Part shown: positions 1,999 through 58,153 of the stretch, one piece after another
Numbering within the stretch: position 1 is the first letter of the stretch
Layout: each line of letters begins with the position of its first letter
DNA from: Clostridia bacterium
GTDB taxonomy: Bacteria; Bacillota; Clostridia; Oscillospirales; CAG-272
Length of the DNA stretch: 64,000 nucleotides
Reading direction: 5' to 3'
NCBI GenBank assembly: GCA_017447775.1
Contig: JAFSMU010000004.1
Coordinates: forward strand, 1-64,000
Made by a program: the position numbers and the translations under genes
The notes under the pieces: model-generated
Database searches by the model: none
Seen by the model: only the letters and a program-made list of their open reading frames with translations
What the model was told of the DNA's origin: nothing

Positions 1999-2676
1999 AT
2001 GGGAAAACTTATAGTTATAGACGGACTTGACGGCTCGGGGAAGAGTACGCAGTGCGACCTGCTTTTTGCGGAGCTTCAGAACCAGGGCAAAAACGTGCGT
2101 CTTGTGTCGTTTCCGAGGTATGACAGCGTCGGCTCGACGTTTGTAAAGCTGTACCTTGACGGTGCGCTCGGCTCTCACCCCGACGACACAAACGCATACG
2201 CCGCGGCGACGTTTTACGCCATTGACAGATACTATTCGTTCAAGACGGAATGGGAGGAGTTCTACAACAAGCCCGATTCCGTCGTCATCGCCGCAAGATA
2301 CACAACGGCAAACGCCGTTCACCAGCTTTCAAAGCTCGACCGCGAGGAGTGGGACTCATTCCTTTCGTGGCTGTTCGACTTTGAGTATGAAAAGCTCGGC
2401 ATTCCGAAGCCCGACCTTGTGCTTTTCCTTGAAATGAAGCCGGAAATATCACTTGACCTCATCCGCCGCCGCAACGAAGAAACGGGCGCGCACAGCGACA
2501 TTCACGAGCGCGACGTCGAATACTTAAACCTTTGCTACAAGGCGGCGCTCTATTCGGCTGACAAGATGGGCTGGGAACACATAAAATGCTACGACGGCAA
2601 AGACCCGCTGACTATCGACGATATTCAGTCGGCAATAATGGAAAAGGTCGTAAAGCTTCTCGACGTAACGGAGTGA
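1999..2676 (+). CDS. tmk: Thymidylate kinase
   Basis: Phosphorylates dTMP to dTDP with ATP for DNA synthesis. The P-loop GLDGSGKST is at residues 9-17, and the dTMP-binding stretch FPRYDSVGS follows near residue 41. At 225 aa it is slightly longer than the usual ~210. An in-frame ATG exists at 1969, but the GGAGG at 1987-1991 sits 7 nt before the ATG at 1999, which also starts exactly where family proteins start. It lies in a tightly spaced + strand run between ftsK and the DJ-1 gene (4-nt gap), so co-transcription is likely. Confidence 0.9.
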   Translation: MGKLIVIDGLDGSGKSTQCDLLFAELQNQGKNVRLVSFPRYDSVGSTFVKLYLDGALGSHPDDTNAYAAATFYAIDRYYSFKTEWEEFYNKPDSVVIAARYTTANAVHQLSKLDREEWDSFLSWLFDFEYEKLGIPKPDLVLFLEMKPEISLDLIRRRNEETGAHSDIHERDVEYLNLCYKAALYSADKMGWEHIKCYDGKDPLTIDDIQSAIMEKVVKLLDVTE

Positions 2677-2680
2677 GATC

Positions 2681-3232
2681 ATGAAAAAAGTCATCATTTT
2701 TTTGGCAGACGGCACAGAGGAGGTCGAAGCTCTGACGCCGCTTGATTATCTGCGCCGCGCGGGCGCCGACGTAACGCTTGCGGGTATTTCAGGCGTTTAT
2801 CAGCGCACATCTCACGGAATAGAGATAAAGACGGACGCCAAAGTTTCCGATATAGACGAAAACACGCCGTTCGATATGGTCGTGATCCCCGGCGGTATGC
2901 CCGGAACGAACAACATCGAGGAAGATCCGCGTGCAATGGCTATAATCAAAAAAGCCGCAATGGACGGCAAATTCATCGGCGCTATCTGCGCCGCGCCGAA
3001 GATAATCGGCGCGCTCGGACTTCTTTCGGGCAAAAAGGCGACGTGCTACCCGGGATTTGAAAAATTTCTTCTCGGCGCGACGGCGGTAAACGAAAAAGCC
3101 GTAAGGGATGAAAATTTCATCACCGCGACGGGCGCAGGCGCCGCAAACGAGTTCGCGTTTGAGCTTATCGCGGCGCTGTATGGCAAAGAAGAAGCCGAAA
3201 AAACGGCAAGATCAGTCAGATTTTTGATATGA
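2681..3232 (+). CDS. DJ-1/PfpI family protein
   Basis: A 183-aa protein of the DJ-1/ThiJ/PfpI superfamily, the YajL/DJ-1-like branch often labelled thiazole monophosphate biosynthesis protein. The start is typical (KKVIIFLADGTEEVEA). The nucleophile-elbow cysteine is Cys103 in GAICAAPK, and the acidic partner is among Glu13-Glu16 in GTEEVEA. Members act as small-molecule or protein deglycases, chaperones or redox sensors; the substrate here cannot be read from sequence. The ribosome site overlaps the tmk stop, so translation is probably coupled. Confidence 0.85.
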   Translation: MKKVIIFLADGTEEVEALTPLDYLRRAGADVTLAGISGVYQRTSHGIEIKTDAKVSDIDENTPFDMVVIPGGMPGTNNIEEDPRAMAIIKKAAMDGKFIGAICAAPKIIGALGLLSGKKATCYPGFEKFLLGATAVNEKAVRDENFITATGAGAANEFAFELIAALYGKEEAEKTARSVRFLI

Positions 3233-3253
3233 CACTTATTTTCGGAGGGTGAA

Positions 3254-3844
3254 ATGTACGAAATAAGAGAGCATAAAACCGAGATCCGCGAAAACTACCT
3301 CGCCAAAAGGCGTGAGCTGACAGCGGAAAAAAAGACGGAGCTTGAAGATAAGCTCTGCCGCGTTATCCTTTCAAGCGCGACGTATCGCTACGCCGACACG
3401 ATCCTTATGTACTACGCCAAAGAGGACGAGGTCGACATCAACCGCATCGCGTGGGAGGCTGTCGCCGCGGGGAAAAAAGTCGCGTTCCCGCGCACAAACC
3501 CCGAGGACAGATCGATGGTGTTCCATTTTGTCATCGGCGAGGACGACTTTGAAGTCGGGCCGTTCGGCATTTGCGAGCCGAAAGCCGAGCTTCCGTCATT
3601 CGAGGTGACGGGCGAGCTTCAAAGGAACGTGATTTGTATAATTCCCGCCGTCGTTTACGACAAAAAGGGTTTCCGCATAGGATACGGCGGCGGATACTAC
3701 GACAGATACCTTTCCACATTCAAAGGCACGAAGGTCGGCGTTGAGTATTCGGAGTTCATCATACCCGAGGTGCCGCACGGCAGATTCGATCTCGCCGTCG
3801 ACGTGCTTATAACGGAAAAGGGCATCTACCCCAAAAAATCATAA
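3254..3844 (+). CDS. 5-formyltetrahydrofolate cyclo-ligase
   Basis: Converts 5-formyl-THF to 5,10-methenyl-THF using ATP, returning the storage folate to the one-carbon pool. The 196-aa length is normal. The signature GYGGGYYDRYL is at residues 143-153, and the basic N-terminal helix contains YLAKRRELT. The GGAGG is 7 nt before the start. It sits in the same + strand run as tmk, which also uses the folate/thymidylate pool. Confidence 0.92.
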   Translation: MYEIREHKTEIRENYLAKRRELTAEKKTELEDKLCRVILSSATYRYADTILMYYAKEDEVDINRIAWEAVAAGKKVAFPRTNPEDRSMVFHFVIGEDDFEVGPFGICEPKAELPSFEVTGELQRNVICIIPAVVYDKKGFRIGYGGGYYDRYLSTFKGTKVGVEYSEFIIPEVPHGRFDLAVDVLITEKGIYPKKS

Positions 3845-3873
3845 AATAATTTTCCCTCGGCGGCGCATAATAT
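3844..3873 (+). promoter_or_regulatory. Possible SigE-type promoter of mltG
   Basis: A -10-like CATAATAT at 3866-3873 is preceded at 15 nt by AAATAAT (3844-3850), a partial match to the SigE -35 pattern. The spacer ends in CGGCGGCG, exactly as in the stronger site before dacF (56906-56933). Inference only; the -35 match is weak. Confidence 0.35.
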
Positions 3874-3887
3874 CGTCGGAGGGAAAA

Positions 3888-4883
3888 ATGAAGAAAAACA
3901 AGATATTTCTGCTCATCTGCGGCGTGCTTGCCGCAAGCCTTGCGCTCTCGGCGCTGATCATTTTCGCCGCAAACGACGCGCTGGCGCTTGACAAAAGCGG
4001 GGATGAGGTAACGCTCGTTCTCACTGACAGAACGAGTGCGGGCGCGCTTTCAAAAAAACTTGATGACGCGGGCATAATCGATATGCCTCACGTCTTCGGG
4101 ATATACTCGGCGCTCCGAAGAAAAACGTCGTTTGAAGCGGGCGAATACACGCTCTCGCGCAGTATGAGCTATGACGAAATTTATATCGCGCTCTCGGGCA
4201 CTCGCGAGCGCGAGCAAATAAAGATAACGATCCCCGAAGGGATGACGACCGACCGCATAATATCGATTTTCACAGATGCCGGAATCGGCACGCGCGAGGG
4301 ATTTATCGACGCGCTTTCAAATGATTACGGCTACGGCTACATCCCGCAAAAGCCTGATGACAGAACGTACAGATACGACGGGTACCTTTTCCCCGACACG
4401 TACTTTTTCTATTCCGACAGCTCGGAGCGGGACGTTATTTCAAAAATGCTGAAAAACTTTGATTTGAAGTTCGGCAAAAACGCCGCGCCCGACGTTGATA
4501 TCGACAAGTGCGTAACGATTGCGTCGATAATTCAGAGGGAGGCATACTTCACCGCCGAGATGGGCGCGCTGTCGTCGGTGCTGCACAACAGACTGTCAAG
4601 CAGCACCCTGCGCCGCCTTGAATGTGACTCAACGGTAGGATACGCGTGGCAGACGGGCAAGTTTGAAGGCGATTTTCTGACCGCCGACAGCCCGTATAAC
4701 ACATATCTCTACGAGGGACTGCCGCCGGGGGCGATATGCTCGCCGGGACTTTCCGCGCTGAACGCGGCGGCAAACCCGAAAAAGACCGACTATTACTACT
4801 TTTTTTCAAAACAAGACAAGACGTTTGTATTTTCAAAAACTCACGCGCAGCATCTTTATCAGCGCAAGAAATACGGCGTTTAA
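3888..4883 (+). CDS. mltG: Endolytic transglycosylase MltG
   Basis: Membrane-anchored lytic transglycosylase that cleaves nascent glycan strands and sets their length. A single N-terminal membrane helix (residues ~6-27, rich in Leu/Ala/Ile) is followed by a LysM-like region and the YceG catalytic domain. The catalytic Glu is about Glu218 in SIIQREA. Conserved stretches LECDSTVGYAW and YNTYLYEGLPPGAICSPG are present. The 331-aa length matches the family. The start has a GGAGG 6-8 nt upstream. The gap before it carries a possible sporulation-type promoter, so part of its expression may be developmental. Confidence 0.93.
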   Translation: MKKNKIFLLICGVLAASLALSALIIFAANDALALDKSGDEVTLVLTDRTSAGALSKKLDDAGIIDMPHVFGIYSALRRKTSFEAGEYTLSRSMSYDEIYIALSGTREREQIKITIPEGMTTDRIISIFTDAGIGTREGFIDALSNDYGYGYIPQKPDDRTYRYDGYLFPDTYFFYSDSSERDVISKMLKNFDLKFGKNAAPDVDIDKCVTIASIIQREAYFTAEMGALSSVLHNRLSSSTLRRLECDSTVGYAWQTGKFEGDFLTADSPYNTYLYEGLPPGAICSPGLSALNAAANPKKTDYYYFFSKQDKTFVFSKTHAQHLYQRKKYGV

Positions 4884-4892
4884 GGAGGAAAT

Positions 4893-6122
4893 ATGACTGA
4901 ACTTTTATCTCCCGCAGGCAATCCCGAAAAGATGCGCGCCGCCCTGCTTTACGGGGCGGACGCGGTGTACCTAGCGGGCAAAATGTTCGGTATGCGCGCC
5001 GCGGCGGACAACTTTACGCTTGAGGAACTTGACGACGCGCTTGACTACGCTCACGCGCGCGGCAAAAAAATATACCTTACCGTAAATACGCTTCCGCGCG
5101 AGGACGAGCTTTCAGCCCTTTGCGAATATCTGTCGGAGCTTTCGCATCTCGGGCACGGCGGACTTGACGGGCTTATCGTCGCCGACCTCGGCGTGTTCTC
5201 CCTGTGCCGCCGCTACATAAAGGACGCGCCGGTGCATATATCGACTCAGGCGGGCGTTGTCAATTCCGAAACGGCGAAAATGTTTTACGATATGGGCGCG
5301 TCGCGCGTCGTGCTGGCGCGCGAGGTGTCGCTCGATCAGATAAAGCGTCTGCGCGAAAATCTCCCCGCGGAGCTTGAGATCGAAGCATTCGTCCACGGCT
5401 CGATGTGCGTGTCGTTCAGCGGACGGTGCCTGCTTTCAAACAATCTTATCGGGCGCGACGCAAACCGCGGCATGTGCGCTCAGCCGTGCCGCTGGAACTA
5501 TACCATCCGCGAGGAAAAGCGCCCCGATACCCCGCTTCCCGTCGAGGAATACCGCGAGGGAACGTTCATTATGAGCTCAAAAGATATGTGCATGGTAGAG
5601 TACGTTCCAGAGCTTATCGACGCGGGCATTTCCTCTTTCAAAATCGAGGGCAGGATGAAAAGCGCATACTATACCGCCGTCGTTACAAACGCATACCGCG
5701 CGGCGATAGACGGATATAAAAAATACGGCAAAGACTACAAATTCGATCCCGCGTGGCTTGACGAGCTTGACTCCGTCAGCCACCGCGAATACTGCACGGG
5801 TTACTATTTTGACGACCCGATGATAAACGCGCAGACCGTGACCCAGCCCGGCTATATGCGCGAGAAAGCGTATATCGCCGTCTGCGAAAGCTATGACGAA
5901 AAAACAGGCACGGCGCGCTTTATCCAGCGCAACCGACTGCTCGACGGCGACGCTGTCGAGATAATCTCCCCGACGATGACGGGGCGCGGCTTTACCGTCG
6001 ACGGAATATGGGACGAGCATGGCGAAAGAGTCCCGTCGGCGCCGCACCCGATGATGAAGTTTTCGGTCAAAGTTCCGTTTGAAGTAAAGCCCGGCGACAT
6101 TATGCGCGGGGCAAACAAATAA
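4893..6122 (+). CDS. Peptidase U32 family protein (TrhP/YegQ-like)
   Basis: A 409-aa U32-family protein. Despite the peptidase label, characterised bacterial relatives (TrhP, RlhA) are needed for 5-hydroxylation of tRNA or rRNA pyrimidines. It starts with the typical ELLSPAGNPEKMRAA and contains the U32 signature around EAFVHGSMCVSFSGRC, followed by GMCAQPCRW, whose cysteines fit the Fe-S/metal site expected in this family. A C-terminal beta-rich domain closes the protein. AAGGAGG is 5 nt from the start. tRNA hydroxylation is the most likely role, by family analogy. Confidence 0.88.
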   Translation: MTELLSPAGNPEKMRAALLYGADAVYLAGKMFGMRAAADNFTLEELDDALDYAHARGKKIYLTVNTLPREDELSALCEYLSELSHLGHGGLDGLIVADLGVFSLCRRYIKDAPVHISTQAGVVNSETAKMFYDMGASRVVLAREVSLDQIKRLRENLPAELEIEAFVHGSMCVSFSGRCLLSNNLIGRDANRGMCAQPCRWNYTIREEKRPDTPLPVEEYREGTFIMSSKDMCMVEYVPELIDAGISSFKIEGRMKSAYYTAVVTNAYRAAIDGYKKYGKDYKFDPAWLDELDSVSHREYCTGYYFDDPMINAQTVTQPGYMREKAYIAVCESYDEKTGTARFIQRNRLLDGDAVEIISPTMTGRGFTVDGIWDEHGERVPSAPHPMMKFSVKVPFEVKPGDIMRGANK

Positions 6123-8647: not shown

Positions 8648-9415
8648 ATGGATAAGACAAAAAGATCCGCTGTCATCGCGGGCAACTGGAAAATGAATAT
8701 GACTCCCTCGCAGACAGGCGCGTTCATCAAAGAACTCGCGCCGAAGGTCGCGGGACTTGACGGATGCAAAGTTGTTCTTTGCGTTCCGTACGTTGATATC
8801 GCGGCGGCAGTTGAAGCTGCGAAGGGCACAAACATCGAGATCGGTGCTGAGAACGTTCACTGGGCTGAAAAGGGAGCATATACCGGCGAAATTTCGGGCG
8901 CGATGCTCTCCGAGTGCGGCGTAAAATACGTCATCGTCGGCCACAGCGAGCGCCGTCAGTATTTCGGTGAAACGGACGTAACTGTCAACGAGCGCGTTAA
9001 AGCGGGACTTTCAAACGGGCTGAAGGTCATCCTCTGCGTCGGCGAAACGCTGACGGAGCGCGAGCAGGGCGTAACGTATGAAACTGTCGCGCGTCAGACA
9101 AAGATAGCTCTCCTCGGCGTGTCCGCCGACGAGCTTAAAAACGTCATCATCGCCTATGAGCCTGTATGGGCTATCGGCACGGGCAAAACGGCGACGGCTG
9201 AGCAGGCTGAGGAAGTCTGCGCTCAGATCCGCGGCGTCATTGCCGATATCTACTGCGAGGCTTGCGCCGAGGCGACGACGATCCAGTACGGCGGCTCGAT
9301 GAACGCGAAAAACGCGGCTGAGCTTCTCTCGATGAAGAACATCGACGGCGGCCTCATCGGCGGCGCGTCGCTCAAATCCGACGACTTCACGGTAATCGTC
9401 AAAGCGGCACAGTAA
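8648..9415 (+). CDS. tpiA: Triosephosphate isomerase
   Basis: Interconverts dihydroxyacetone phosphate and glyceraldehyde 3-phosphate. Catalytic elements are present: Lys in AGNWKMN, His in IVGHSERR and Glu in YEPVWAIGTGK, with the phosphate-binding loop YGGSM and GLIGGASL. The 255-aa length is normal. It has its own CGGAGG site and is co-transcribed with pgk. A terminator follows at 9431. Confidence 0.97.
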   Translation: MDKTKRSAVIAGNWKMNMTPSQTGAFIKELAPKVAGLDGCKVVLCVPYVDIAAAVEAAKGTNIEIGAENVHWAEKGAYTGEISGAMLSECGVKYVIVGHSERRQYFGETDVTVNERVKAGLSNGLKVILCVGETLTEREQGVTYETVARQTKIALLGVSADELKNVIIAYEPVWAIGTGKTATAEQAEEVCAQIRGVIADIYCEACAEATTIQYGGSMNAKNAAELLSMKNIDGGLIGGASLKSDDFTVIVKAAQ

Positions 9416-9430
9416 TAAAGTAATACTTAA

Positions 9431-9457
9431 AAGCGCTCGAAATTCGGGCGCTTTTTT
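9431..9457 (+). terminator. Terminator of pgk-tpiA
   Basis: Hairpin AAGCGC...GCGCTT followed by six T. Confidence 0.75.
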
Positions 9458-9463
9458 GAAATT

Positions 9464-9520
9464 CAACCTTTTGTTGAGTGAAAAAACAACCTTTCGGTTA
9501 CAAAAAACAACGTCTTGTCG
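9464..9520 (+). promoter_or_regulatory. Three-copy CAAC-N5-GTTG-like dyad array upstream of XRE gene
   Basis: Dyads of the form CAAC-N5-GTTG start at 9464 (perfect), 9487 (CAAC-N5-GGTT) and 9508 (CAAC-N5-GTCG). They are spaced 23 and 21 bp apart, about two helical turns, and each is embedded in A/T tracts. A TATAAT lies at 9545-9550, so the array ends just upstream of the likely promoter. The spacing suits a dimeric HTH regulator, most simply the XRE protein encoded at 9599. Inference. Confidence 0.45.
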
Positions 9521-9598
9521 CTTAAAATCGCACGTTTTCCGATGTATAATGGGCACAGCACTTGCAAGGCTGAATAAAATTTTACGGAGGTTATTATT

Positions 9599-10090
9599 AT
9601 GGAAACATTCGGTCAAAGATTTCAAAAATTGAGAAAAGCAAAAGGACTTACCCAGGAGGACATTGCAAACAAAATAAACATCAGCGCTCAGGCGGTATCA
9701 AAATGGGAAAACGATCTCACAAGTCCCGATATATCGGTGCTTGCGGAGCTATCGGATATGCTTGGCGTTACGCTTGACGAGCTTCTCGGCAAGGACGCGC
9801 CGAAAACCGCCGAGGTATTGCCGCCCGATGAGCGGCGGGACATCTCCAAAATGATGTTCAAGATGACCGTCGACAGTTCAGACGGCGACAAGGTCAGGAT
9901 AAATTTACCGATGACACTTGTCAAAATTTTCACGGAAAGCGGAGCCGGAATGCCCGATATCAACGGCAAGAATACGCTCAAAAATATCGACTGGAATCAA
10001 GTTCTCATGCTTGTGGAGCAGGGCGTGATCGGCGAGATTATGAGCGTTGACAGCGCGGACGGCGACCGCGTGCGCATTGTGGTCGAATGA
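9599..10090 (+). CDS. XRE-family transcriptional regulator with C-terminal beta domain
   Basis: A 163-aa regulator. Residues ~5-60 are a Cro/CI-type helix-turn-helix (FGQRFQKLRKAKGLTQEDIA, then AQAVSKWEND). After a short linker, the C-terminal ~75 residues form a separate domain ending MSVDSADGDRVRIVVE, similar to the small SHOCT/DUF2089-like domain seen in LiaX/YvlB-type proteins. The neighbouring 77-aa protein ends in the same pattern. ACGGAGG precedes the ATG. The upstream three-copy dyad array suggests autoregulation. Targets unknown. Confidence 0.8.
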   Translation: METFGQRFQKLRKAKGLTQEDIANKINISAQAVSKWENDLTSPDISVLAELSDMLGVTLDELLGKDAPKTAEVLPPDERRDISKMMFKMTVDSSDGDKVRINLPMTLVKIFTESGAGMPDINGKNTLKNIDWNQVLMLVEQGVIGEIMSVDSADGDRVRIVVE

Positions 10091-12017: not shown

Positions 12018-12142
12018 TTTATTCCATCACGGGCTGAATCTGCCGCCCTGCAAAGGCGGACATCATCGTTTCTCCCACGCGGTCAAAATCGCATACAAGC
12101 GAGTGCGGCTTTCCCTTCGGGTCGTCCTGCGCCATCGGCACA
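12018..12142 (-). repeat. Intact copy of the 125-bp repeat (3' end of dpaB)
   Basis: Partner of the decayed copy at 10372-10496, in the same orientation. 118 of 125 positions are identical. The similarity stops at the same base on both sides (a T/A difference just past the stop codon; the GGCACA edge inside the gene). Confidence 0.9.
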
Positions 12143-12579
12143 AAAAAGACGTTTTTGCGCTTCATCAGCGTCCCGATATTGTCAAGATTTGCCGAGAGCG
12201 CGTCGTTTGTCGCAAGCGCTATCACAAGCGGGCGATCACAGCGCAGATGCGCCTTCGCCGCCATTGTAACGGGCGTGTCGGTGATGCCCGAGGCTATTTT
12301 TGCAAGTGTATTTCCCGTGCAGGGGCATATCACAAGTATGTCAAGCGGCGACTTCGGCCCGAGCGGTTCCGCGTCGACTATCGTGTGGATTATCTTGCGC
12401 CCGCACAAATTTTCAACGGTGTTTTTGATGTCCTCGGCCTTGCCGAAGCGCGTGTCGGTGCCATATACCGCGTCGCTCATTATCGGCTGAACGGAATTGC
12501 CTTCGGCGCAAAGGCTACGAAGCACCTTCAACGAGCGCTCAACGGTGCAAAACGATCCGCAAAGTGCGTATCCTATCAT
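12019..12579 (-). CDS. dpaB: Dipicolinate synthase subunit B
   Basis: Flavoprotein-fold subunit (SpoVFB) of the enzyme making dipicolinic acid in the mother cell for export to the forespore core. The 186-aa length is typical. It starts GYALCGSFCTVERSL and contains the flavoprotein-type ICPCTGNTLAKIA and MAAKAHLR stretches. Its start overlaps the dpaA stop (ATGA), so the pair is translationally coupled. The last 40 codons recur as a pseudogene fragment 1.6 kb away. Confidence 0.95.
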   Translation of the reverse strand: MIGYALCGSFCTVERSLKVLRSLCAEGNSVQPIMSDAVYGTDTRFGKAEDIKNTVENLCGRKIIHTIVDAEPLGPKSPLDILVICPCTGNTLAKIASGITDTPVTMAAKAHLRCDRPLVIALATNDALSANLDNIGTLMKRKNVFFVPMAQDDPKGKPHSLVCDFDRVGETMMSAFAGRQIQPVME

Positions 12580-13334
12580 TTGAATATTTCTCCTTTTAGT
12601 ATGTCATATACGGCGTCCCCCAAAGCGTATCCCGCTTGGCGCGGCGCCGTCTTACCCGGAAGTCCGGGGGCGAAAATAAACTTCCCGCCGAGCAGGCGGC
12701 GATCGTCTTCGTCAAAGCCGTACGGCGCCGACGCAAGCTCGATGACGTACCCGCCGATCTTCAAAACGTTTACCGTTGGCGCGGGGACGGTATTCACAAC
12801 ACAGTCAAACCCGTCCTCAAAATCGGCAAAATCTTTTGCGCGGCAAATCTTTTCCGCTTCGGCGCGCGCCTCGGCACGCCGCGCAAAAACGGTAACGTCG
12901 CCGCCGAGAAACGTCAGCTTCTCCGACAGGCTTTTGCCTATTCTGCCAAAGCCCAAAACGGCGATTTTTGCCGACGATACAGAAAACGGCCGCTCGTTTA
13001 TCATTATCCCGACCGCTCCCTCAGCTGTCAGCTCCGCGTTCTTTTTGACGTATTCACCGTTTTTTGAATAGTCGAAAAACGGCAGCGGCACGGCATATTT
13101 TTCCGCCGCGCCCGGCCCTATCACCGCCGCGGGCGAAAGCGATTTTATAAGCTCGTTTGTGTCGATCCGCCCACGCGGCGTCGACGTTGACGCTGAGGCG
13201 TTTGGCGGCAAAACGATCACGGCGCCCGCCTTTTGTTCAAGCGTTGCATACACGCCGCGGGATAATAGTCTGATCACCGCATATTCCGAGCGAGCGTCCG
13301 CGTTTATAACTGAAACAATTGTCTTTTCGTTCAT
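12576..13334 (-). CDS. dpaA: Dipicolinate synthase subunit A
   Basis: Dehydrogenase-like subunit (SpoVFA) that oxidises the dihydrodipicolinate-derived intermediate. A Rossmann motif VLGFGRIGKSLSEKLTFLG lies in the second half, and the PGLPGKTAPRQAGYALGDAVYDIL stretch at the C-terminus is diagnostic when read in two parts. At 252 aa it is shorter than the ~295-aa Bacillus protein; the N-terminal domain is the compact part. AGGAG precedes the ATG. A GCATATAATG sequence at 13372-13381 on the - strand resembles a SigK/SigE -10, but no convincing -35 was found. Confidence 0.92.
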   Translation of the reverse strand: MNEKTIVSVINADARSEYAVIRLLSRGVYATLEQKAGAVIVLPPNASASTSTPRGRIDTNELIKSLSPAAVIGPGAAEKYAVPLPFFDYSKNGEYVKKNAELTAEGAVGIMINERPFSVSSAKIAVLGFGRIGKSLSEKLTFLGGDVTVFARRAEARAEAEKICRAKDFADFEDGFDCVVNTVPAPTVNVLKIGGYVIELASAPYGFDEDDRRLLGGKFIFAPGLPGKTAPRQAGYALGDAVYDILKGEIFK

Positions 13335-35737: not shown

Positions 35738-37249
35738 TTACCAGTCAACTCCGGGGATGATCGGATGATCGGGTTCTTCGACCTCTTCAAACTGCGCGTG
35801 GTGGAAGTCTTCAAGTTTGCCGTCAACAAGTTTTCCGATATATATATTATTCGATGTTGCACCGAAGGTTCCGTCGGTATACTTTTTATATTGTGTCGCT
35901 AATGAAATAAACTCTCCCGTTTCTTCGTTTACATATAAAATCCTATTGCAATGGAGTAGGTCGTCTTGAAAAAGCAATTCTTCCTCGCCTGTTTTTCTGT
36001 TGTATCTGACTATCCCGTTTGCTGAATTTATGATTTTTTCCGCTTCGCCCGTTACAATCGATACATAGCTGCCGTATCCGAGAAATACCGATTCTCCACC
36101 CGGATAGTATAAATAATTATTCGTTGCGTATGATGCGTTTCTTTCTATGTCAATTAATTTGTATTCTCCGTTTGGAAAAACTTCAATCTTCTCTCTTGAA
36201 ATACGATTACCTTTCTCGTTACGACGACCAATTGTACAAAGTTGTCCGTTTGCTGTATTGCGTATTATGGAAAGAGTGTCATTTTCTCCGAGAAACGGAA
36301 TACTTGTTATATTCAGATTTTGATCGGTAACTACATACTCTGTCTTTTTTGTGTTTGGATTAATTCCGCCAAAACGTATGTATTTTCCTACCGCGTATTG
36401 AAACACAAGACTTTCAAGTCCGAGGTCTTTTGCAAGAGCTTCCATTTCTTCCGAAAGATCGTGAAGTTTTCTTGTTTCAGTGTCAAGCCTGTAATTTCTT
36501 ACAACTCCGTCAGCGTCAAGATGTTCTAAATAAATAGAATTGCCGCCGGAAATAAAAATGGGAAAATAAGTGATATTTCCGTTTACGCGTTTTCTCGCGT
36601 CTGTTCTTGTAAAATCACTCGGAAGCTTCGAGAAAGATACGTCTATCCGGATATCCGTTGCATATTCGTTGCAAGACCATATTTCATCAAAAAATGTAAA
36701 ATAAATTCTTCCGTTGATATAAAGGGGCGGATTTAATGTGTCAGTTCTTGCCCCATTAATTACTTCCAGCATTCTTGCAACGCACGTCGTCCCTACGTAT
36801 TTTTCCCCGTCCCAGATACGTTGATGCTGACAAAGCGGGTCAAAGCAGAACGGGTAAAACTCCCCATCCGCCTTGCTGTAGTAATATACGCCTGCTTTGT
36901 TACCGGCCACTGAATATACACCTAAAAAAATAATTTTCGAGTTCGTTTCAACAAATGTGGTCATGCCTGTATCCGGAGAAAATGAATACCCCGTAGGCAC
37001 AAACTCTTTCGGATCATCTATGTTCGTTCCGCCTGTTGTTTCCGTCGGCTCGGTTGTTGCCGATTCGGATGGAGCAGGCTCGCCCGTCGGCTCGCTCGAG
37101 GAGGACGCACCATCAGACGTTGCCGCTTCCGTCGGCGCAGATTCGCTCGGCACGGTGACGCTCGCGCTCGGCGCAGCCTGCTGCCCGCAGGATGAAAGCG
37201 CGAGGATAAGCATTGAAAGAGCGATAAAGAGAGAAATTAGTTTTTTCAT
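35738..37249 (-). CDS. Lipoprotein with C-x4-C-x-H motif, unknown function
   Basis: A 503-aa exported lipoprotein: signal peptide with lipobox LALSSC (lipidated Cys21), then a ~55-residue Ser/Thr/Glu/Pro-rich linker (residues ~25-75), then a large beta-rich domain that looks like a propeller, with repeated short strands around Tyr/Gly. Residues 135-156 carry C-x4-C-x-H and a further Cys (FCFDPLCQH, TTCVARM), a pattern I have seen in other clostridial lipoproteins and that may bind metal or form disulfides. Codon use is visibly AT-richer than in neighbouring genes. The 176-aa secreted-protein gene lies 25 nt upstream, so both may be co-expressed. Confidence 0.72.
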   Translation of the reverse strand: MKKLISLFIALSMLILALSSCGQQAAPSASVTVPSESAPTEAATSDGASSSSEPTGEPAPSESATTEPTETTGGTNIDDPKEFVPTGYSFSPDTGMTTFVETNSKIIFLGVYSVAGNKAGVYYYSKADGEFYPFCFDPLCQHQRIWDGEKYVGTTCVARMLEVINGARTDTLNPPLYINGRIYFTFFDEIWSCNEYATDIRIDVSFSKLPSDFTRTDARKRVNGNITYFPIFISGGNSIYLEHLDADGVVRNYRLDTETRKLHDLSEEMEALAKDLGLESLVFQYAVGKYIRFGGINPNTKKTEYVVTDQNLNITSIPFLGENDTLSIIRNTANGQLCTIGRRNEKGNRISREKIEVFPNGEYKLIDIERNASYATNNYLYYPGGESVFLGYGSYVSIVTGEAEKIINSANGIVRYNRKTGEEELLFQDDLLHCNRILYVNEETGEFISLATQYKKYTDGTFGATSNNIYIGKLVDGKLEDFHHAQFEEVEEPDHPIIPGVDW

Positions 37250-37274
37250 AAAATGGATCCTTGCTTAAACTTTT

Positions 37275-37805
37275 TTAGGTCCAAAATTGTGCTATACCGT
37301 TCGAAAGCACTTCATACGTTGCGCCCGTTGAGCTTGTAATGACAATAAAGTTTTCTGTTGACACATATTGATATGGAACATTGCTTTGGAGTTGATGTAT
37401 ATTACTGGCTAAAACAGGATGAACGCTTGATAACGTTCCGCTTCCATAAGTCCACTCTGTTGTCATTTGTTCACTGTAAATTTGAAAAACGGTCATAACA
37501 GATAAATTAATTGAATAGGACTCTCCAGTGGGCACATAATCCGGATATGGATTTTCTTCATACGGAAATTCATCTTCAAAAAGCTCCTGATCAAAGAAAG
37601 AAACATTTAGTCCCACGTAAAGCGAACCGTCTGTATAAACAACCATTTCTGATTTGCAATCAAATATGTCGTTATTAAATAAAACATATTTGTGCGCAGT
37701 TTGTGTGTACCGTATGTCATCCCTCGCGAACGCACTTACACTCAGCACCGAGAATAAAATTGCTGCTGCCAGCACTACTGTTAAAATTTTTGTGGTTTTT
37801 TTCAT
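37275..37805 (-). CDS. Small secreted protein, unknown function
   Basis: A 176-aa protein with an unambiguous Sec signal peptide (TKILTVVLAAAILFSVLSVS, cleavage likely after AFA near residue 26). The mature part is acidic, Tyr- and beta-rich, ending in NGIAQFWT. Family not recognised. CAGGAG lies upstream of the ATG. It lies in the same AT-rich patch as the following lipoprotein gene. Confidence 0.68.
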   Translation of the reverse strand: MKKTTKILTVVLAAAILFSVLSVSAFARDDIRYTQTAHKYVLFNNDIFDCKSEMVVYTDGSLYVGLNVSFFDQELFEDEFPYEENPYPDYVPTGESYSINLSVMTVFQIYSEQMTTEWTYGSGTLSSVHPVLASNIHQLQSNVPYQYVSTENFIVITSSTGATYEVLSNGIAQFWT

Positions 37806-54696: not shown

Positions 54697-54777
54697 AAAT
54701 TGCGCCGTCATCTTGACATTTTTGCCGTTTTCTGTTATTATTTAACTGTAAAAATAACAATATCGGAGGTTTATGAA

Positions 54778-55008
54778 ATGAAAACTGCAAAAATCAAGCT
54801 TTCCTCGATCGAAGCCGTTCGTAAATTCGTTGACGTTGTGCGCGAATATGACTGCGAAATAGACCTTTCAAGCGGCAGATACCTTGTCGACGCAAAATCA
54901 ATTATGGGTATATTCAGCCTTGATCTTATGAAACCGATCGACCTCACCGTTCATTCGGACGACTGCGACAAGCTGTTTGAGGACATTAAGGACTACATAG
55001 TTGAATAA
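54778..55008 (+). CDS. HPr-like protein lacking the phospho-histidine
   Basis: A 76-aa protein with the HPr open-faced beta-sandwich pattern: DLSSGRYLVDAKSIMGIFSLDL corresponds (read in parts) to the regulatory Ser46 region, and the final helix is CDKLFEDIKDYIVE. The position of the active His15 (normally G-L-H-A-R-P) is LSSIEAVRKF here, with no His, so it cannot be a PTS phosphocarrier. A regulatory or sporulation-related (Crh-like) role is possible. ATCGGAGG supports the start. Confidence 0.72.
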   Translation: MKTAKIKLSSIEAVRKFVDVVREYDCEIDLSSGRYLVDAKSIMGIFSLDLMKPIDLTVHSDDCDKLFEDIKDYIVE

Positions 55009-55057
55009 AGACTGGCGGCGAAATCATTTCGGCGGCCGTCAATAATGCGATGCCACA

Positions 55058-55090
55058 AAAGCCGCAGGACAAGGTGTCTTGCGGTTTTTA
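55058..55090 (+). terminator. Terminator of the HPr-like gene
   Basis: CCGCAGGACA-AGG-TGTCTTGCGG followed by TTTTT; it insulates the next gene pair. Confidence 0.85.
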
Positions 55091-55124
55091 TCAACAATAC
55101 AATTCGAAACACGGAGAAAAAGAT

Positions 55125-55913
55125 ATGTCAGAAGAACTGAAATGCCCGATTTGCGGGCAGCCGACAAGAGTTTATATGGGAAACGCCCGCAGAGACAGAC
55201 TTTGCGCCAAGCACGCAGACGAACTTAAAAGCGGGAGAATAGTCATAAACGAGGACGGACTTTACGTAGAGCCGAAAACCGGAACAGTCCTTAACCCAAA
55301 AAGCAAGCCGACCTATCAGAAGCCGCACTATGTAAAACCCGAAGCGGAAAATCAAAGCGGCGAGGAAACCGCGGCGGACGCCGTTGTGGTAAAATGTATC
55401 GCCTGCGGCAAGGAAACAAAGAACGGAAATCTTTTCTGCATTTCATGCTATCTTAAATACAAAGATAAGCAGCTGCTTGTAAAAGTCACAAAATGCAAAG
55501 AGATAGAAATAATGGACGAGTCCTATGAGGGCGTTTATAAATGCAAGGACGGACATATTGTCAAAAGTAAATCGGAGCGCGAAATAGACAATTATCTGTT
55601 TGACCATGGCATACCGCACGCATACGAAAAGGCAATATCGATTGACGCGGACAGGGAACACGACCTTCACCCCGATTTTTATTTGCCGAACTATCTCAAC
55701 AACGGAAAAGACGTATATATAGAGCATTGGGGATTCAATTCAAACAACAGAAATTATACAAAATCGAAGAAATATAAAATCGATATTTACAAAGAAAAAG
55801 GATTGACTATAATATCCACAAACGAAAAGGATATGAACGACCCTGAAGCTTCTTTGGACAGAAAACTCAACCATTTCAAATATGACACTATAAATTTTGC
55901 GGAAGAGGAATAA
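55125..55913 (+). CDS. Zinc-ribbon protein with restriction-endonuclease-like C-terminal domain
   Basis: A 262-aa protein. The N-terminal zinc site is Cys7/Cys10/Cys27/His30 (KCPICGQP, LCAKHADEL); a second ribbon at Cys91/94/105/108 (CIACGKET, FCISC) follows a polar linker. The C-terminal ~125 residues fit a PD-(D/E)xK-like fold: helix with Glu151 (KSEREIDNYLFDHGI), Asp184 in LHPDFYLPNY, and Glu200 in VYIEHWG, the E-x-W variant seen in helicase-associated nucleases. CGGAG precedes ATG 55125. Composition is AT-rich relative to flanks. Target unknown. Confidence 0.65.
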   Translation: MSEELKCPICGQPTRVYMGNARRDRLCAKHADELKSGRIVINEDGLYVEPKTGTVLNPKSKPTYQKPHYVKPEAENQSGEETAADAVVVKCIACGKETKNGNLFCISCYLKYKDKQLLVKVTKCKEIEIMDESYEGVYKCKDGHIVKSKSEREIDNYLFDHGIPHAYEKAISIDADREHDLHPDFYLPNYLNNGKDVYIEHWGFNSNNRNYTKSKKYKIDIYKEKGLTIISTNEKDMNDPEASLDRKLNHFKYDTINFAEEE

Positions 55914-55919
55914 AGGGTT

Positions 55920-56858
55920 ATGAAATGTCAGGTATGCGGCGCAGAAAGCGGAAAATACCCGTTGTGCCGGGCGTGCAATATGAAAAAAGAGCAGGGAGAG
56001 GTAATTAAATGTTCTTATTGCGGACGGTGGCATTATGCAGATCAGAGCTGCAAAAGCACGCCAAACAATGATGCTGAAAAAAGCGGATATTTGTATGACA
56101 AGAAACCTGTTCTTATGACAAAAATTGAGCAGAACTATTATTATGCCGTAAAATACAGCTTGCCCGAGGGATATTTGGTCTTTCCGCAAATAAATCTTGC
56201 CGCTTTTATCAAACGCACGGATAATGTGCCTTATCATAACGAATTGTTCAGAAACGTAGATTTTCTTATTACGGATAAATACTATTCGCCGAAAATCGTT
56301 GTTGAAATAAATGACAGCACGCACCTGAATTCAGACAGAAAAGAACGCGACGAAAAAGTAACGAATATTCTTGAAGAAGCCGGCATCCCGCTTTTGAAGT
56401 TGTGGACTTCTTATGGCATAAATCAAGACTATATCAAAGAGAAAATAGAAGAAACACTTAATGCCCCGATTGTCAGAAAGCATCACGTAATTGAAAATAA
56501 AGCGGCACAGCAAAGCAATCAAGCCGCATACAGCTTCAGTAATTTACCGAGCGGCAATAATTCACAATACAACAACCAACAAGACACAAGAAAAAAAGGC
56601 TGCTATATCGCAACGTGTGTATATGGATCGTATGATTGTCCGCATGTATGGGTTTTACGCAGATACAGAGATAATAAGCTGGCTCGGACGTTTTTCGGCA
56701 GACTGTTCATAAAAGTATATTATAAGATCAGTCCGGAGCTTGTCCGCCGTTTCGGAAAATCGTCTTGGTTCTGCAAATTCTGGAAATCTTTTTTGGATAA
56801 AAAGGTCAGAAAATTGTATGAGAAAGGATATCTTGATACGCCGTATTACGATATTTGA
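55920..56858 (+). CDS. Double zinc-ribbon DUF2726 protein with CFI-box C-terminal tail
   Basis: A 312-aa protein starting 6 nt after the previous gene. Two zinc ribbons (MKCQVCGAE, LCRACN; then KCSYCGRWHYADQSC) lead into a DUF2726-type nuclease-like domain: TKIEQNYYYAVKYSL, Asp in RNVDFLITDK, VVEINDSTHLNSDRKERDEKV, then EAGIPLLKLW. After a Gln/Asn/Ser-rich linker (residues ~195-222) comes a CFI-box-type tail, GCYIATCVYGSYDCPHVWVL, followed by RRYRDNKLARTFFGR and YYKISPELV. Pairing with the preceding zinc-ribbon/nuclease-like gene suggests joint function on nucleic acid. Not a recognised system. Confidence 0.68.
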   Translation: MKCQVCGAESGKYPLCRACNMKKEQGEVIKCSYCGRWHYADQSCKSTPNNDAEKSGYLYDKKPVLMTKIEQNYYYAVKYSLPEGYLVFPQINLAAFIKRTDNVPYHNELFRNVDFLITDKYYSPKIVVEINDSTHLNSDRKERDEKVTNILEEAGIPLLKLWTSYGINQDYIKEKIEETLNAPIVRKHHVIENKAAQQSNQAAYSFSNLPSGNNSQYNNQQDTRKKGCYIATCVYGSYDCPHVWVLRRYRDNKLARTFFGRLFIKVYYKISPELVRRFGKSSWFCKFWKSFLDKKVRKLYEKGYLDTPYYDI

Positions 56859-56877
56859 TGTAATACCGTTTTAAATT

Positions 56878-56904
56878 AAAGCCCCGCGTTTTGCGGGGCT
56901 TTTG
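56878..56904 (+). terminator. Terminator of the zinc-ribbon gene pair
   Basis: AAAGCCCCGC/GCGGGGCTTTT hairpin directly before the dacF promoter. Confidence 0.88.
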
Positions 56905-56905
56905 T

Positions 56906-56933
56906 CATATTATCCCGCGGCGGCGCATAGTAT
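56906..56933 (+). promoter_or_regulatory. SigE-type promoter of dacF
   Basis: CATATT (56906-56911), 14-nt spacer, CATAGTAT (56926-56933), 29 nt before the ATG. It is the best SigE-like match in the window together with spoIIP, and fits a sporulation carboxypeptidase. Confidence 0.55.
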
Positions 56934-56962: not shown

Positions 56963-58153
56963 ATGAAACGGATAACGGTATTTTTGCTTGCCATGGCTAT
57001 GTTTTTGGTGCTTGTCCTGCCCGTGTTTGCGACGAATACGCCGCCGGATGACAATGCTTACGTCTTGACGTCTGCAAGCTTTTCGGCGGAGGGGATCGAC
57101 GCCACGTCGGCAATTCTTATAGAGCAGGGCACGGGGCGCGTGCTGTTTGAATACAACGCCGACGCGCCGCTCCCGCCCGCGTCTGTTACGAAAACGATGA
57201 CGATGCTGCTTGTGCTTGAAGCTATCGACGACGGCAGGATAAAGCTCGACGATATGGTAAGCGTCAGCCGGAACGCCGCGTCGATGGGCGGCTCGCAGGT
57301 GTTTCTGGAAGCCGGCGAGCAGATGAGCGTCGACACGCTGCTCAAATGTATGGTCGTGGCGTCCGCCAACGACGCCGCCGTCGCGCTGGCGGAGCATATT
57401 TCGGGGAGCGAGGCGTCGTTTGTCGCCCGTATGAACGAGCGCGCGCGGGAGCTTGGCTGCACCGCGTCGAATTTTGAAAACGCCACCGGCCTTGACGACA
57501 CGGTGCAAAATCACGTTATGTCGGCGCGCGATATCGCAAAAATAAGCGCGGAAATAATGAAGCATCCGAAGATAAAGGACTACACGACGATCTGGATGGA
57601 CACCATCCGCGACGGCGCATTCGGCCTGACGAACACAAACCGCCTTATCCGCTTTTACGACGGCGCGACGGGGCTTAAAACAGGCTCCACCGCCAAGGCG
57701 AAATTCTGCATTTCCGCAACGGCTGAGCGCGGCGGGCTTTCGCTTATCGCCGTGATAATGGGCTCCTCCACGCGCGACTCGCGAAACGAACTTGCCAAAA
57801 ACCTGCTCGACTTCGGCTTTGCAAACTTTGCCGCAGTAAGCTACGGCGGAGCTGACGCGGGGAGCGTCGCCGTCAAGGGCGGAGTGTACCCGAGCGTTGC
57901 GGCAAAGCGGCTGCCGTTTTCGGCGATAGTCGATAAAGCGGACGCGGGCAAGGTCGAGGAGAGCGTGGAGATGGCGCAGTCGGTAACGGCGCCCGTCAAG
58001 GCGGGAGATAAGCTCGGCACGGTCACGTACCGCGTCGGCGATAAGATCGTCGGCACGTCGGATATCGTCGCCGCCGAGGACGACGCGAAGATAAGCTATT
58101 TTACGCTTCTGCCGAAGATCTTCCGCTGGTTTATCATCGCGCCCGAAAGTTGA
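56963..58153 (+). CDS. dacF: D-alanyl-D-alanine carboxypeptidase (DacF/PBP5 family)
   Basis: A 396-aa exported low-molecular-mass penicillin-binding protein that trims the terminal D-Ala of stem peptides. A signal peptide (ITVFLLAMAMFLVLVLPVFA) is followed by the catalytic S-x-x-K in PPASVTKTMTM, S-x-N in VASANDAAVAL and K-T-G in GLKTGSTAKAKFC. The C-terminal beta domain (from about residue 275) and amphipathic end (KIFRWFIIAPES) anchor it to the membrane. GGAGG supports ATG 56963. The promoter type suggests a role in spore cortex. Confidence 0.93.
   Translation: MKRITVFLLAMAMFLVLVLPVFATNTPPDDNAYVLTSASFSAEGIDATSAILIEQGTGRVLFEYNADAPLPPASVTKTMTMLLVLEAIDDGRIKLDDMVSVSRNAASMGGSQVFLEAGEQMSVDTLLKCMVVASANDAAVALAEHISGSEASFVARMNERARELGCTASNFENATGLDDTVQNHVMSARDIAKISAEIMKHPKIKDYTTIWMDTIRDGAFGLTNTNRLIRFYDGATGLKTGSTAKAKFCISATAERGGLSLIAVIMGSSTRDSRNELAKNLLDFGFANFAAVSYGGADAGSVAVKGGVYPSVAAKRLPFSAIVDKADAGKVEESVEMAQSVTAPVKAGDKLGTVTYRVGDKIVGTSDIVAAEDDAKISYFTLLPKIFRWFIIAPES

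Follow-up and report, generated by a model that had tools for sequence, protein, structure and literature searches.

The PD-(D/E)xK nuclease fold is common to enzymes such as Vsr, I-Bth0305I (EDxHD) and T7 endonuclease I, the third motif of which is E-x-K. DUF2726 (PF10881), a domain with the motif D...E-x-N/D-D-x-x-H, has already been described as a DNase of the restriction-endonuclease fold (PMC3710099), and transposon insertions in a DUF2726 gene raised biofilm formation in Avibacterium paragallinarum (PMC13119452). This phenotype is the only functional information in the DUF2726 literature that we searched, in which no biochemical function is given. The C-terminal domain family CFI_box_CTERM (NCBIfam NF041770) was not mentioned in any paper found by a literature search. 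All of these elements meet in a locus of the Clostridia contig analysed here, of which a stretch of 64,000 nucleotides (the window) was available. Two co-directional genes, A and B, separated by 6 nt as originally predicted, encode proteins in which zinc ribbons precede nuclease-fold domains, and B ends in a CFI box (Table 1). The component parts are known, and a ribbon joined to a Vsr-type nuclease and a ribbon joined to DUF2726 and a CFI box are new architectures. What would be new in the tail is a functional reading of the uncharacterised CFI box. We propose that the locus is an insertion with two nuclease genes that travel separately, A coding for a soluble protein and B for one held at the membrane by a CFI box that replaces a transmembrane helix, a reading that we consider about evenly poised between right and wrong.

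Table 1. Features of the A-B locus and its flanks (positions in the window).
Feature	Position	Strand	Remarks
HPr-like protein gene	54772..55008	+	left flank; conserved in the genus; PTS-HPr E=4.5e-7
Inserted segment	~55012..56874		absent from two congeners; joined flanks aligned with intergenic DNA of G004 and G072
Intrinsic-terminator-like hairpin upstream of A	55055..55092	+	MFE -20.8 kcal/mol, z -6.8; T-run
Gene A	55125..55913	+	262 aa; two zinc ribbons and a Vsr/T7-endonuclease-I-like PD-(D/E)xK nuclease domain
A first zinc knuckle	55125..55244	+	residues 1-40; C7, C10, C27; from alignment with L002 and L021
A second zinc ribbon	55386..55469	+	residues 88-115; C91, C94, C105, C108, invariant in the alignment
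A nuclease domain	55530..55880	+	residues 136-252; from 17-row alignment and fold match
Gene B	55920..56858	+	312 aa; zinc ribbon, DUF2726 nuclease-fold domain, linker and CFI-box tail
B zinc ribbon	55920..56063	+	residues 1-48; homologue of the first A-family ribbon
B DUF2726 domain	56112..56465	+	residues 65-182; motif D114 ... E129-I-N-D-S-T-H135
B CFI-box tail	56598..56855	+	residues 227-312; all-helical; net charge +11
Terminator-like hairpin 3' of B	56874..56906	+	MFE -18.8 kcal/mol, z -4.6; T-run; matches the post-HPr terminator of G004 in alignment
D-alanyl-D-alanine carboxypeptidase-type gene (DacA, named from sequence)	56963..58153	+	right flank; adjoins the HPr-like gene in G004 and G072

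The two genes are held in a segment of about 1.9 kb, the ends of which are placed to within 10-15 nt. In two congeners, G004 and G072, the HPr-like gene adjoins DacA, with a terminator but no further gene in the DNA between them, and in a third genome, G119, an MtaB-like gene comes directly after HPr. Judged from these sequence comparisons, the segment is an accessory insertion; its loss in the other congeners may be an alternative, as the genus comparison comprises four genomes. Neither a target duplication nor terminal or flanking inverted repeats were found around the insert, and the idea of transposon-like ends was rejected. The accessory, mobile character suggested by the original prediction agrees with the empty site in the two congeners and with the presence of relatives of A on Rep-type elements, as described below. 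Terminators on either side of the pair had been predicted as well, and a hairpin with a T-run is present at both. An alternative in-frame ATG for A lies at 55050, and the relatives in L002 and L021 start at the position aligned with 55125. The lower GC content ascribed to the pair (0.42 in A and 0.40 in B) holds against the window (0.52) and DacA (0.59) but not against the HPr-like gene immediately 5' of A (0.42). Since that gene and two further stretches of the window (35.5-38.5 kb and 46.5-48.5 kb) are as GC-poor as A and B, low GC by itself is weak evidence of mobility. Positions 35738-37805 (GC 0.37-0.43) contain two secreted or lipoprotein-type genes without firm Pfam match.

Protein A contains CxxC knuckles in its N-terminal part, as predicted, in a region modelled with only fair confidence (pLDDT ~65-85). 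The second half of its first ribbon is degenerate, though it is present in the relatives L002 and L021. A search with the single sequence gave no firm match in Pfam or the PDB. A profile of the A family reaches T7 endonuclease I (E=3.5e-5), and the nuclease domain is predicted to form a PD-(D/E)xK core (pLDDT ~90) that resembles Vsr (Z 10.0, 2.7 Å, 108 residues), I-Bth0305I (Z 10.3, 96 residues) and TnsA (Z 8.6). The top row of the fold search is a mitoribosomal protein. For a domain of this size, Z values of 8-10 indicate a shared fold and say nothing on function. Across 17 aligned relatives, S148, E151, Y167, E168, D184, E200 and Y211 are invariant and K218 is nearly so. The E...D...E-x-W arrangement on which a nuclease-fold domain had been predicted in A is thereby located at E151, D184 and E200-H-W202, in company with the Vsr-type predicted fold. 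The third motif departs from that of a T7 endonuclease I-like resolvase, E-H-W standing in place of E-x-K and the conserved lysine, K218, lying further downstream. Most of the aligned relatives are nuclease domains that form insertions within UvrD-like helicases from this order; they share the signature E...PDF...E-x-[HY/F] with A, which itself has no helicase. Among PADLOC models, A matches the candidates PDC-S69 (2.9e-23), PDC-S68 (2.9e-13) and HEAT_CxxC_PDDEXK (5.7e-10) in their nuclease part only, the PDC-S69 match covering model positions 166-285 of 289 rather than its full length. The nuclease domains of PDC-S69 and HEAT_CxxC_PDDEXK are homologous to that of A, and the N-terminal half of these models is unmatched.

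For protein B, the profile searches that had been suggested place both DUF2726 (E=6.5e-17; score 61.9 bits, cut-off 24.7; residues 65-177) and CFI_box_CTERM (E=1.4e-20; score 72.8 bits, cut-off 40; residues 228-294 of 312, at the C-terminus) above their cut-offs, in line with the DUF2726-like and CFI-box-type domains recognised at the outset. D114, E129 and H135 are kept among aligned relatives. The model has a mean pLDDT of 84, with the domains at ~90-98, the N-terminal ribbon, which like those of A has CxxC knuckles, confidently placed at ~95 and a poorly ordered linker; the CFI tail is built of helices only (pLDDT ~97). The predicted fold has a PD-(D/E)xK core and resembles ngo0050 (Z 9.3), I-Bth0305I (Z 8.9) and Vsr (Z 8.5), so that structure prediction yields a nuclease fold for both proteins. 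These fold matches are taken up by the nuclease domain, and a sequence search with the CFI tail against solved structures gave no credible match. Unlike Vsr, I-Bth0305I and T7 endonuclease I, both A and B carry zinc ribbons. Most stand-alone DUF2726 members in our comparison have an N-terminal transmembrane helix; B has no transmembrane segment and instead a zinc ribbon in front of the domain and a CFI box behind it.

The ribbons of A and B are related to each other, a point that goes beyond the original prediction: a profile of A and its two closest relatives detects the N-terminus of B in the same genome (E=1.8e-4) and that of a B relative in G059 (E=4.5e-4). In 394 genomes of the order, no A-B adjacency was seen elsewhere among relatives of either gene, and none of the loci found holds both, so the two genes either came together by chance in this insertion or were combined only recently. 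The idea of a conserved two-gene module is rejected on this ground, as A and B occur independently in unrelated contexts, an outcome that the original prediction had itself named as counting against it. Full-length relatives of A were found in G139, in G460 and in a Ruminococcus MAG (L021). In two of the three, G139 and G460, the gene lies on elements that resemble each other and encode a Rep_OBD/helicase replication protein (1.1e-10) as well as mutually related membrane proteins. On these elements (L093 of G139, 12127-13203; L094 of G460, 8781-9857), the A-type nuclease gene stands at one side, and there are several large membrane proteins, those scanned being without Pfam match; they possibly represent an undescribed family of Rep-type mobile elements of the order. 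In L021, the relative of A adjoins a gene on the minus strand (2069-4900) for a 943-aa protein that carries the motif DFDSD, matches no Pfam family significantly and is possibly RNA-polymerase-like.

Relatives of B are found in G424 and G488, in a form lacking the ribbon in G403 and in a form with a transmembrane tail in G440, and three further ones are broken, by in-frame stops in G059 and G470 and by breaking off in G185. They occur singly amid ordinary chromosomal housekeeping genes, no defence island being seen around them. Near the broken copy of G059 (L092, 955-6884), small unknown genes, several of which have leader sequences that are almost the same, form a series interspersed with other unknown proteins; the arrangement resembles an array in which secreted factors are accompanied by partners. 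In phage records, A has no match and B has only partial ones, to small Vibrio phages and to one CFI-tailed protein of a Clostridioides phage. Phage cargo was rejected as a description of the genes on this basis, and no close relatives of B were found in viral contigs.

These contexts bear on what the genes may do. The defence role that had been held possible draws on the likeness of A's nuclease domain to the PADLOC candidates and finds nothing on the side of B, which has no PADLOC match and no island around its relatives; such a role is possible. A more specific reading is that A and B form a dedicated anti-phage or anti-plasmid system in which the ribbon-nucleases are subunits acting on one target. 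The 6-nt gap, the common insertion, the homologous ribbons and the PADLOC matches would all suit it, but those matches are limited to the nuclease part of the models and the relatives stand alone in the 394 genomes of the order, and we regard this reading as unlikely. An equally unlikely reading holds A and B to be decaying leftovers of a mobile element with no present role. The first ribbon of A, which has lost half its cysteines compared with its relatives, and the frequent breakage of B relatives would fit decay, whereas both frames are intact in the window, with the nuclease residues preserved and the CFI motif complete.

NF041770 domains occur in 54 of the 394 genomes (about one in seven), mostly once per genome, and are mostly 50-60% identical to the tail of B, on proteins that are otherwise unrelated. 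Their partners include zinc ribbon plus TPR-like domains, BspA LRR, ankyrin, bacterial Ig-like domains, PGFFGGY repeats, acidic stubs and DUF2726, and almost none of these proteins has a credible transmembrane segment. The core has a mean net charge of +7.8 and 19% F/W/Y, and its helices are moderately amphipathic; its hydrophobicity is too low for membrane spanning. Across the unrelated N-termini, GCY-[IV]-A-T-x-V-Y-G and RRxRD are very strongly conserved and the cysteine is invariant.

In two unrelated families, the CFI box and transmembrane helices replace one another. The DUF2726 protein of G440 shares 49% identity with B over 176 residues, and its C-terminus is a transmembrane helix (Kyte-Doolittle 3.05) at the place of B's CFI box; in a tree, it groups with the CFI-tailed protein of G403 (83/85), and two changes of state are needed. 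More broadly, transmembrane segments are present in 28 of 32 stand-alone DUF2726 proteins lacking a CFI box and in none of the four that have one (Fisher p=0.001, relatedness ignored). As the segment is N-terminal in most of them, only G440 represents a like-for-like exchange within this family. Four DUF2726 proteins encoded on proteobacterial plasmids have an N-terminal hydrophobic stretch, judged by eye. In the zinc-ribbon/TPR family, G233 encodes a CFI-tailed copy and one that is 77% identical in the N-terminal part and ends in two transmembrane helices, G147 encodes one CFI-tailed and one transmembrane-bearing copy, and a copy in G003 (76%) ends in a single transmembrane helix; two changes of tail state are again needed in the tree. 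A third CFI family, with PGFFGGY repeats, has no relative with a transmembrane tail, and its sole non-CFI relative is distant and without evident transmembrane segment. On two conjugative plasmids, of Microbulbifer and Marinobacter (L159, 2923-3847; L162, 2905-3838), a gene for a small CFI-tailed protein overlaps a PD-(D/E)xK (PDDEXK_1) gene whose product has an N-terminal hydrophobic stretch, and a fused MFS/spermidine synthase gene lies upstream. The front of the CFI-tailed protein resembles the start of a Cas4-like nuclease, and the pair may encode a membrane-held split nuclease.

From the exchange with transmembrane helices in two unrelated families and the arrangement on the two plasmids, we read the CFI box as a stand-in for a membrane anchor. 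The charge and aromatic content suit a peripheral domain that binds anionic lipids; binding of nucleic acid or a partner also fits, and tethering by way of a protein partner instead of lipid is equally compatible. To judge from the sequences, conservation of the core exceeds the needs of a plain anchor. This conservation has its place in another reading, in which the CFI box serves as an effector or binds protein, nucleic acid or, through the invariant cysteine, a ligand, and has changed places with transmembrane helices only incidentally. The many N-terminal parts that consist of repeats or recognition modules (LRR, ankyrin, TPR-like, Ig-like) would suit that reading, as would the high positive charge in the case of nucleic acid. 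It would leave the exchange at one C-terminal place in two families, including paralogues in one genome, to coincidence, and we hold it to be possible but rather doubtful. That the CFI box is instead an unrecognised peripheral membrane-anchoring domain, grafted onto many unrelated cytoplasmic proteins, with B as a membrane-tethered nuclease, seems to us as plausible as its opposite.

Under the reading proposed here, A would be a soluble, cytosolic Vsr/T7-endonuclease-I-like nuclease of a type borne by mobile elements, and B a DUF2726 nuclease in which the usual transmembrane helix has been swapped for a CFI-box domain, the basic, aromatic, amphipathic helices of which would hold it at the cytoplasmic membrane. 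The zinc ribbons of both would bind nucleic acid, and DNA would be the substrate that both proteins cleave or process, in the case of B at the membrane as the entry site of foreign DNA. Their targets may be plasmids or phage genomes entering the cell; alternatively, the two may be in the service of a mobile element. Beyond this locus, the exchange with transmembrane helices offers an idea of the role of CFI tails, which roughly one in seven genomes of the order encode on very different fusion partners, and it suggests that DUF2726 nucleases, often plasmid-borne, act at the membrane.
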